IMG/VR virus record: IMGVR_UViG_3300032333_000111
Coordinates: 1 to 32,597 of that record
Direction: 5' to 3' (one strand)
DNA length: 32,597 bases
Source: a virus
Shown here: one piece after another, positions 4,042 to 6,365 of the stretch
How positions within the stretch are numbered: position 1 is the first letter of the stretch
Layout: the number at the start of each line of letters is the position of its first letter
Translations under genes and position numbers: made by a program
The notes under the pieces: generated by a model
The model's input: only the letters and a program-made list of their open reading frames with translations
Told to the model about the DNA's origin: nothing
The model's database searches: none

Positions 4042-4222
4042 TTAGCACCTTCTTCATTCTCGACAACTCAGATAGGCATTCTGCCAACAGGCTTGCAGAA
4101 CGGGCTTGCTGACGCCGCAACTCCATGACTAGCTCAGCATGGTTCATACGACGAACCTCTTGCCAGTAATCCTCTGCTTCTATATCCACATAGTCTTCAT
4201 GCAACTCTATGACGTTACTCAT
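4004..4222 (-). CDS. Hypothetical protein, 72 aa, acidic N-terminus and helical C-terminus
   Basis: No family is recognised. The start is placed at the ATG at 4222 (MSNVIELHEDY) because it forms an ATGA overlap with the upstream stop; a longer frame reaches 4234. The N-terminus is acidic (HEDYVDIEAEDYW) and the rest is a long helix, MNHAELVMELRRQQARSASL and onward, likely a short coiled coil. Proteins of this shape are common dimeric assembly or regulatory factors in phages, but nothing specific supports either role here. Confidence 0.65.
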   Translation of the reverse strand: MSNVIELHEDYVDIEAEDYWQEVRRMNHAELVMELRRQQARSASLLAECLSELSRMKKVLNGELYAGERYAG

Positions 4223-4452
4223 TCTGACCTCCAAACACGTATGCCATCCCCTTCACGGCGAGCAATAAACTTCATACCCAACTTCTTACCCGCCCTCCAA
4301 TTACCATTCAACACCACTTGCATCTGCACACCATCCACATAAAAGCTCTGCCCAACCCCCATCTCCGCATACGGATACCGTCTTACCACCCTAGCCCCCG
4401 GCATAGGGACAGCATCATCAATAATAACTCCCATATCCTCACCTCTATCCAT
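4219..4452 (-). CDS. Small DUF7303-like phage protein, 77 aa
   Basis: This is the first gene after the intergenic control region in the leftward direction. The segment PYAEMGVGQSFYVDGV, followed by a basic stretch WRAGKKLGMKFIARREGDGIRVWR, resembles a small phage family (DUF7303-like: an F-x-x-M-x-V-G-x-S-F strand, then K-F-x-x-R and R-V-W-R). The function of that family is not established. A GGAGG-like ribosome site (rich in G and A near 4459-4464) precedes the ATG at 4452. I am fairly sure it is a real gene and less sure of the family assignment. Confidence 0.7.
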   Translation of the reverse strand: MDRGEDMGVIIDDAVPMPGARVVRRYPYAEMGVGQSFYVDGVQMQVVLNGNWRAGKKLGMKFIARREGDGIRVWRSE

Positions 4453-4493: not shown

Positions 4494-4521
4494 AAAAAAA
4501 ACCCCAGTACAAGACCGGGGT
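4494..4521 (-). terminator. Rho-independent terminator in the leader of the late block
   Basis: Read on the minus strand, ACCCC pairs with GGGGT across an 11-base loop and is followed immediately by a run of eight U. The complementary face has no T run, so only leftward transcripts would stop here. It lies about 40 bases before the first late gene, so late transcription starting further right must read through it, or it ends a separate leader or small RNA. Confidence 0.65.
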
Positions 4522-4639
4522 CAAAATGACTAAGCCAAGCGAGGGGAGGCATAGTCAACACAGAAGGAAAATCAAGAACACTATAACTGTAAAGTTAAAC
4601 AGCTACCACTATAAACTTAAAGCTGGTACTCGCTGCGTC

Positions 4640-4957
4640 TGGCTATGCTCCCGGCCGGTCTAGGTAGTCCCAGCATCCGCTTTCCCAACACGACTGAGGA
4701 CTGAGAAGATCGTTCTGACCCACTAGTAAGGCACACAATCCTCATGCGTATTGGTTGTTGGTACTTACCCGTCCTTAGCAAAACTCCCGCGAATTCCCTA
4801 CATCTAGGCTTTCCCAACACAACTGAAGACTGCGCCCTTACGAGGCCGCTTAGTCACTAGGACACTCCGCTGATCTCACTACCTTTAGTCCGGACTTTCC
4901 AGTAGCAAGCCAATCTTCATGTGTGTTGGGGCTAGTAGCGCCAACTACTAACCCCGG
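4640..4957 (-). ncRNA. Candidate structured RNA: duplicated long-hairpin module
   Basis: Two homologous stems can form in a minus-strand transcript. Hairpin A pairs 4911-4930 with 4813-4832 (18 of 20 positions). Hairpin B pairs 4736-4755 with 4684-4703 (17 of 20 positions). Both keep the same two-base internal mismatch. Between the copies, two base pairs switch together (A-U in A, G-C in B) and a third changes C-G to G-U. All G-U pairs are valid only in minus-strand RNA. A further hairpin at 4928-4955 (GGGG, U-G, UAGUAG stem, six-base loop) precedes them and would compete for three bases of hairpin A. Homology extends past the arms (a GGGAAAGC block follows each). No known RNA family is recognised; transcription has not been shown. 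Confidence 0.6.
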
Positions 4958-5363
4958 ATACTACGTGCCAATTAAGGAGGTTAGGCAGAGAAAGAATACC
5001 AGAACCACGGAAAACATGAAATTTCCTTGGGGCGGGAGCGGGATAGGGCACGCAACAATCAAGGTCAAGACCCATCGACATAGCCAGAAAGACAAGAACA
5101 GAGTCAAACGCTAGCAGCGACAACCCCTTTCCCATTTGAATAGCGTTTAAAACGATTCTAAGGGCTATACACAAGGCTAATCGGGGGAAGGGTATCCAAA
5201 CCCTTACCCATTATGGCAATCGGATAGGGGCGATGGGAGAGCGCCTCACTTGCACTTTCCCCCATTGCACAATTACCAACTGCTATATATTTATAGTAAA
5301 TAACTATAATAACAATTATATAAAAGACTTATTATATTATATATCAGTTTATATAGCCTATGA

Positions 5364-5486: not shown

Positions 5487-6365
5487 ATGACGACTATTTA
5501 TCAGGAAATAACAGATTCAATCATTAGCGAACTAGAAAAAGGTGCAACTCCGTGGGTTAAGCCTTGGAACGCACCACAATCCGCTGACAAGAATGTAGTT
5601 AGCGGTAAAGCTTACAGAGGTATCAATCGTTTCATTACTGCAATGGTTAGCGGTATTAAGGGTTATAACAATCCGGCATGGGCTAGTCTAAAACAATGGA
5701 ATGACTTAGGCGGTAGGGTTCGCAAGGGTGAAAAATCTACAAAAATTGTTTATTGGTCACAAGCTAAAGATAAGAAAGCAGAGCAATCAGGCGAAGATAA
5801 GTTCTACCAATTCGCTAAGGTTTCCTATGTTTTCAATGTAGAGCAAATTGACGGTATTGACATAATCGCAAGTGAGGATACACCGGTATCCGACAATCAA
5901 AAGATTGAAGCTTGCGAGAATCGCATTATCGCTACTCAAGCGAAATACTCTATCGGGGGCGATACCGCTTGCTACATTCCATCAATAGATTCAATCCGCA
6001 TGCCGGCACTTAACACTTTTCAAAGTGCTGAACACTACTACGCTACGTTTTTCCACGAATTAACCCATTGGACAAGCGAAAAGACTAGGTGCGACCGTGA
6101 TCTATCAAAAGGTAGATTCGGCAATGCTGACTATGCGTTTGAGGAACTGGTCGCTGAACTAGGTGCAGCTTTCTTATGTCAGCAGCATGGCATCAAGGGT
6201 GATTTACGTCACGCCGGATATATAGATCACTGGCTTAAATGCCTGAAAGCAGATAGCAGAGCGATATTTAAAGCCAGTGCGTTAGCGCAACAAGCTAGTG
6301 ATTTTCTGCTTATGTGCGGTAGTGATAAGCAGGAACTAGTCAACGACGAATTGTTAGCAGCATAA
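5487..6365 (+). CDS. ardC: ArdC-like antirestriction protein / zincin metallopeptidase
   Basis: The 292 residues have the two-domain layout of ArdC/TraC-like proteins. The N-terminal ssDNA-binding domain (DUF1738-type, about 1-120) shows ATPWVKPWNAP, YRGINRF, and a WASLKQWNDLGGRVRKGEK block with a later KVSYVFNVEQ strand. The C-terminal zincin domain has the HELTH motif at about 190-194 and a downstream FEELVAELGAAFL acid segment for the third zinc ligand. Family members bind single-stranded DNA and protect incoming DNA from host restriction. As the first early gene, downstream of the promoter and with an AGGGGATTA ribosome site, it is well placed for immediate expression after injection. A replication-linked role cannot be excluded. 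Confidence 0.92.
   Translation: MTTIYQEITDSIISELEKGATPWVKPWNAPQSADKNVVSGKAYRGINRFITAMVSGIKGYNNPAWASLKQWNDLGGRVRKGEKSTKIVYWSQAKDKKAEQSGEDKFYQFAKVSYVFNVEQIDGIDIIASEDTPVSDNQKIEACENRIIATQAKYSIGGDTACYIPSIDSIRMPALNTFQSAEHYYATFFHELTHWTSEKTRCDRDLSKGRFGNADYAFEELVAELGAAFLCQQHGIKGDLRHAGYIDHWLKCLKADSRAIFKASALAQQASDFLLMCGSDKQELVNDELLAA

Follow-up and report, generated by a model that had tools for sequence, protein, structure and literature searches.

A predicted leader RNA with exchangeable domains at the head of terminase operons in uncultured phages

Two modules in one leader

Ahead of the late genes of an uncultured phage lie two long and similar hairpins, which raise the question of whether they belong to a selected RNA and, if so, what such an RNA does at the head of an operon. 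The DNA analysed (positions 1–32,597 of virus record IMGVR_UViG_3300032333_000111; 'the window' here means this whole stretch of 32,597 nucleotides) carries the leader region on its minus strand, to which all features described below belong unless another strand is given. Re-pairing of the minus strand reproduced exactly the two stems of the original prediction, the first joining 4930–4911 to 4832–4813 with 18 of 20 positions paired, and the second joining 4755–4736 to 4703–4684 with 17 of 20. Both have a mismatch at positions 10–11, and the differences between them preserve pairing: positions 9 and 15 are A-U in one and G-C in the other, and position 6 is C-G in one and U.G in the other. A strict module finder matches the window exactly twice, at these two stems, and made two matches in 7.3 Mb of control sequence; a relaxed finder gave chance matches and was discarded in its favour.

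Against dinucleotide shuffles of the minus strand, each stem folded alone scores z −3.9, and a third hairpin proposed at 4955–4928 is also real (z −4.8 for 4957–4926). The region 4620–4960 as a whole scores −2.8 on the minus strand versus −1.1 on the plus strand. In its minimum-energy fold the two modules, being mutually complementary, pair with one another, and the local hairpins appear only when each module is folded alone; such pairing between copies is expected of tandem repeats and is uninformative on the native order of folding. When the A and B helices of each window module are folded jointly, the scores (−1.7 and −0.9) do not stand clearly apart from shuffles. The B helix of the window is supported by comparison rather than by energy, and it is covariation in relatives, rather than folding energy, that decisively supports a structured RNA.

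Read 5′ to 3′, the leader begins with a predicted promoter, without experimental mapping, marked by an extended −10-like hexamer, TATTCT (4993–4998; TGGTATTCT), in a block that is conserved 5′ of the insertion point in all aligned relatives; the predicted start is ~30 nt 5′ of the first hairpin. This accessory hairpin, GGGGTTAGTAG-TTGGCG-CTACTAGCCCC (4928–4955), stands immediately 5′ of module 1 and recurs in two relatives (L002 and L005), while other phages have different small hairpins there. In module 1, the arms of helix A (4911–4930 and 4813–4832) enclose insert A (4833–4910). The end of the 3′ arm is overlapped by the 5′ strand of helix B, GTTGGGA (4812–4818), which pairs with TACCAAC (4757–4763) to close insert B (4764–4811). 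Module 2 repeats the plan, with helix A at 4736–4755 and 4684–4703 around insert A (4704–4735), and helix B at 4683–4689 (again GTTGGGA) and 4622–4628 (TACCAGC, one change from the usual TACCAAC) around insert B (4629–4682), which is of the GCGGATGCTG...CAGACGCAGCGAG type. The helix A arms are assigned from their pairing together with family-wide covariation; helix B of module 1 from family comparison, window pairing and the covariation of its inner closing pairs in the family; insert B of module 1 from family comparison of the anatomy; and helix B of module 2 from window pairing. An intrinsic terminator (4494–4522) separates the modules from the first late gene (4219–4452; 77 aa, function unknown), which heads the operon leading to the large terminase (707–2470).

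Between module 2 and the terminator (4621–4586) there are two copies of TTTAA(G/C)TTTA(T/C)AGT, with −10-like TATAGT and TACAGT. The same motif lies directly 5′ of modules in L006, L198 and L200, and it may be a promoter type of these phages. Across the same intergenic region, a gene for an anti-restriction protein (phrog_7245; 5487–6365, plus strand) heads a divergent operon.

Relatives were gathered with the terminase and methyltransferase of the window phage as bait. Four close relatives (L083, L003, L007 and L009) are without the stretch corresponding to ~4991–4578, with the promoter and flanks kept; L008 has a single module at the window position, and other versions are present in L002, L005 and L006. 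Whether a leader has none, one or two modules, a T-run terminator is kept near the first late gene. By this comparison the module is an optional insert of the leader and, as promoter and terminator are kept without it in close relatives, it is not what permits passing that terminator. The duplication that was first proposed holds for the window, which has two tandem copies, while relatives have none, one or two. The proposed flank GGGAAAGC is found after the stems as one version of the helix B 5′ strand plus the start of insert B, and is not a constant feature. Overlooked at first were helix B, the exchange of inserts, a tRNA-like B domain and the wide distribution.

Scaffold and inserts of the module family

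Each module has the same order: helix A with a conserved 2 × 2 internal loop, insert A, and then a flush helix B closing insert B. Helix A is ~17 bp long and conserves both a C.Y/A.G tandem mismatch and a U.G pair, and helix B is 7 bp long (GTTGGNN/NNCCAAC), its strands separated by some tens to ~200 nt, so that a module is ~120–250 nt in length. A first scan of IMG/VR with the 3′ arm as a DNA pattern matched at least 119 contigs; among the matches listed, the 5′ arm lies mostly 36–114 nt 5′ of the matched 3′ arm. Further scans with open helix positions brought the total to at least 306 distinct modules, and this prevalence is a lower bound. A shortened module (GACGCATGGGGATTGAGGTCCCTATCCGTGTTGG), its insert A nearly gone, lies on the reverse strand of L317 at ~486.

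Arms varying without compensation in related phages would have refuted the prediction of a selected RNA; this check was run, and the prediction stood. The search for such cases used the 5′ arm only, with three helix positions left open and the partner chosen by conserved flanks and not by the triplet. A partner was found for 181 of 197 5′-arm matches, and all but three of these (178/181) are complementary at all three open positions, with more than 15 different complementary triplets (AGG/CCT, GGG/CCC, GAG/CTC, ACC/GGT, GCG/CGC, GGT/ACC, AGA/TCT and CTG/CAG among them). This open-triplet search is the unbiased test, whereas the outer positions were set by the search patterns and the finder with which the 306 modules were collected demands 9 of 10 pairs. 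The tandem mismatch is kept at its two positions in 279 and 276 of 288 non-redundant modules, and the U.G wobble in 258 of 288. Wobbles in the open triplet comprise 73 G.U against 3 A.C, from which it follows that the selected strand is the one read into the downstream genes. The covariation and these sense-strand G.U pairs support a selected structured RNA of the minus strand in the window, and not a gene. In helix B, the inner two positions are paired in 258 and 250 of 287 modules versus 213 and 176 in shuffles.

The inserts behave differently from the scaffold, their turnover being far faster. Among the modules listed, there are 171 clusters of insert A and 197 of insert B; these counts are approximate, being based on a simple sequence ratio. 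Most multi-member A clusters (56/61) occur with at least two B clusters, and the reverse is true of 41 of the 46 multi-member B clusters. Independently of clustering, 41 module pairs combine near-identical A inserts (≥95%) with unrelated B inserts, and 23 combine near-identical B with unrelated A. The window modules are examples. Insert A of module 1 belongs to an exchangeable cluster, 'GGCTTGCTACTGGAAAGTCCGG...', found beside eight different B clusters, and its 79 nt are common to L158 (≥95%), in which B is unrelated; insert A of module 2 recurs in L114, L116 and L139 beside other B inserts, and insert B of module 2 is partly common to L008. To judge from these comparisons, inserts A and B shuffle independently between phages, and what is displayed can be any folded RNA, on a scaffold kept by compensatory mutations.

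A common type of B insert has, after 2–3 nt, the hairpin GCGYA-GGCUGA-URCGC, then a variable part, and then the hairpin GCCGG-AGAUCAGYA-CCGGC flush with the 3′ strand. Position 2 of the first loop covaries with position 8 of the second (G-C 20, A-U 10, G-U 7, A-C 1), which is evidence for GCUGA/UCAGC kissing loops. T-loop motifs are present in 13 of 197 B clusters, where shuffles would give 0.6, and in nine of 171 A clusters, and stretches of the B domain score as tRNA in Rfam in L191 and in L174. ARAGORN found no tRNA in the window, nor in L199 and L134 despite their tRNA-like B domains. Small hairpins with a constant GAAAGA hexaloop on at least 12 different complementary stems often stand directly 5′ of a module (e.g. 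L394, L178 and L133), and other pre-module hairpins have ATAANCGTAA or TTGGCG loops. Seven module contigs carry phage tRNA genes (L138, L127, L147, L158, L213, L216 and L225); in L147 and L225 the module begins within a few nucleotides of the tRNA 3′ end.

Place in genomes and possible modes of action

All 30 of 30 records have one module locus each, nine of them with a second, tandem match nearby (the completeness of the records is unknown), and the many copies per genome of a dispersed mobile repeat of the REP or MITE type are thus not seen. Rough ORF calling places the gene that follows on the strand of the module in most loci. Among 102 loci fetched by the RNA pattern alone, the largest ORF within 3 kb downstream has a Terminase_6N domain in 34, a Terminase_3 domain in 24 and a TerL_ATPase domain in four; as the overlap among these counts is unknown, this ORF is a terminase large subunit in 34 to 62 of 102. 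The largest nearby ORF upstream is a terminase in only ~3 of 104. The term 'late leader' is apt for the window phage and for most others. In one Polynucleobacter genome and one Nitrosomonadales genome the operon headed by the module has RecT and RecE-like genes instead. The copies in bacterial genomes are L232, L393 (Polynucleobacter sp. UK-Kesae-W10) and L394 (Nitrosomonadales); L393 has a repressor-like gene upstream and RecT and exonuclease genes downstream, and so is probably a prophage. Hosts among Burkholderiales, Polynucleobacter and Nitrosomonadales are inferred from these three genome matches and have not been assigned for the contigs. The exact 3′ arm is present in one of 186 Polynucleobacter genomes. 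Most of 16 pattern matches in genome contigs are due to chance, lacking a 5′ arm, and a single weak match of 34 bases among plasmids was also taken as chance. With two different modules as query there was no match to the cultured phages of INPHARED, and the records with the nearest TerL, from Manatee Spring, have no module in the stretches examined.

Taken together, covariation and gene order establish the module, at the level of sequence, as a widespread structured RNA of uncultured phages that serves as the 5′ leader of a single operon, most commonly the late one led by terminase. It is probable, though inferred without transcript data, that it acts in cis on the transcript that it heads, since there is a single copy, it lies on the sense strand, and it often runs from the predicted start of transcription to just short of the first start codon. 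How it would act is the weakest step. The first guess, a doubtful one drawn by analogy with HK022 put, is contact with RNA polymerase: the conserved bases of the abutting helices would touch the elongating host enzyme, as the putL stems of HK022 do, and transcription of the operon might then pause less and end less often at Rho-dependent or intrinsic terminators. The distal inserts would point away from the polymerase and could vary freely. One TTGG is contested by the 5′ CCAA that precedes helix A and by the 3′ CCAAC, both kept in 218 of 288 modules, so it may be inferred from the sequence that helix A forms first and that completed B displaces the end of A, which could time a switch. The position of the window terminator between the modules and the late genes was counted for such contact. 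Intrinsic terminators inside downstream operons number 0.33 per 10 kb versus 0.27 on the opposite strand, which is no enrichment; Rho sites are invisible to this survey. A general antitermination at nearby intrinsic terminators was rejected for want of a downstream excess and because the terminator of the window persists where the module is missing, and neither the survey nor the relatives without modules demand antitermination. A cis-acting operon leader with put-like polymerase contact remains the best explanation as a whole, if only a tentative one.

Two other explanations are close rivals of put-like contact. The first, unlikely although far from negligible, is that the module protects the 5′ end of the late mRNA and serves as a translation leader, sealing the end against decay by RppH and RNase E and presenting the first ribosome site after helix B. 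In modules with a strong −10-like hexamer, the predicted starts lie ~3–12 nt 5′ of ACGCATG, inside or adjoining a helix, as this explanation would have it; such hexamers peak 10–19 nt 5′ of ACGCATG in only part of the modules. The module is also nearly the whole leader, a start codon with a ribosome site following helix B mostly by 12–33 nt; two relatives without a module (L003 and L007) carry a small GAATC...GATTC hairpin at the same place; and the inserts can be anything folded. Any hairpin would do for such a purpose, however, and it would be left unexplained why the helix sequences and the tandem mismatch are conserved, why helix B is flush and why there is a tRNA-like B domain.

The second of the close rivals, which can be entertained only with reserve, is an RNA acting in trans. 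The leader would be released by a terminator or by cleavage, and its exchangeable domains would target host factors, for instance by serving as decoys for defences that sense tRNA or other RNA, with the shuffling a sign of an arms race. A terminator directly follows the module in L015, L032, L122 and L191, and the promoter–terminator unit of the window would give a stand-alone RNA of ~0.5 kb. The tRNA-like B domains, the T-loop motifs and the turnover of the inserts, far above that of the scaffold, are also in keeping with this, and CBASS senses structured RNAs from the terminase region (PMC10686824). Most modules nevertheless run into a gene, with a terminator within 400 nt in ~9%, no target or partner is known, and a displayed RNA need not head one particular operon. 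A related speculation is that of an RNA class evolving by domain exchange, in which a fixed two-helix scaffold displays interchangeable domains, tRNA-like ones included, at operon 5′ ends, and phages trade these in the manner of tail fibres, since the RNAs on display would encounter host-specific factors such as defences that sense RNA or target tRNA.

It is very improbable that the module is merely a recombination joint or a mobile RNA-coding element, a core that spreads and offers short homology for DNA exchange while the RNA itself does little. The patchy presence, clean empty sites, tandem copies and swapping of inserts at the core would suit it, as would the HNH endonuclease gene that adjoins the modules of L005 (330–775, inserted just 5′ of the leader promoter and beside its two modules). 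Selection on the RNA is needed, however, to account for the compensatory changes and for the G.U pairs of the sense strand, and one locus per genome means no multiplication, with position and orientation fixed at operon heads. A packaging RNA, or a cos- or pac-linked structure working with terminase, is scarcely credible despite the single locus beside terminase genes in many phages: an RNA of the phi29 pRNA type would be required by the packaging motor, whereas the module is absent from phages with TerL 96–99% identical to that of the window, and one scaffold accompanies TerL genes of several families as well as RecT operons.

Comparison with known RNAs and systems

The view that this RNA belongs to no known family is borne out by Rfam 15. 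At gathering thresholds (the window and 20 module loci) and at permissive E-values (the window leader and eight loci), the scans returned no family other than tRNAs, two of them inside B domains; there are weak terminator-like sRNA scores at 4494–4598. Group I introns, hammerheads, RNase P and HEARO were considered and have no Rfam support; a 'GGAAAGTCCGG' in insert A of module 1 resembles the CR-I motif of RNase P. The RYYYAAC/GTTRRRY boxes of integron attC sites misfit most modules on a reading of the sequence. No description of this RNA was found in the literature searched.

The family has at least 300 distinct copies and very strong covariation, and stands at the head of terminase and recombination operons of many uncultured phages; none of the RNA libraries searched contains it. 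The literature searched gives no account of entire RNA domains being swapped independently on an unchanging scaffold. What a phage gains from exchangeable RNA ahead of its late genes has become a testable question, and the copy in Polynucleobacter sp. UK-Kesae-W10 is a possible bench system.

GOLLD and ROOL are large structured RNAs associated with phages, sometimes together with tRNA genes. The modules differ from them in having no Rfam match, in their length of ~120–250 nt and in being part of an mRNA leader. The common B domain is like a tRNA in its 7-bp acceptor-like helix, a hairpin after 2–3 nt, a variable part, a flush second hairpin and the kissing loops. It differs in lacking a CCA end, the acceptor-like helix being followed mostly by AAC and not N-CCA; the arms are not tRNA arms in most modules, and helix A stacks at the position that the aminoacyl end would occupy. 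The staphylococcal-phage cabRNA sensed by CBASS originates within the coding sequence of terS–terL and shows no sequence conservation from one phage to another, whereas the modules lie upstream of genes and have a conserved scaffold (PMC10686824).

The analogy with HK022 put that was originally suggested remains a conceptual one: the module finder detects no copy of the core in HK022 (NC_002166), put itself being unaligned. PutL lies just downstream of its promoter, and its two stems are wedged apart at their junction by the zinc-binding domain of RNA polymerase (PMC9378689). Like put, the module is a phage RNA heading an operon near a promoter, without coding potential and with two helices meeting at one point; two abutting stem-loops near the 5′ end of an operon transcript are what put requires, and A and B are flush, with GTTGG common to both. 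Put works without a phage protein. It is ~70 nt long and has no large exchangeable inserts, whereas in the module family the helix bases are conserved, the inserts are exchanged and the usual site is a terminase operon, and antitermination has not been shown. The novelty of the family rests on its absence from Rfam 15 and on its domain-swapping architecture; if put-like antitermination should prove true, the function itself would be of a known kind.
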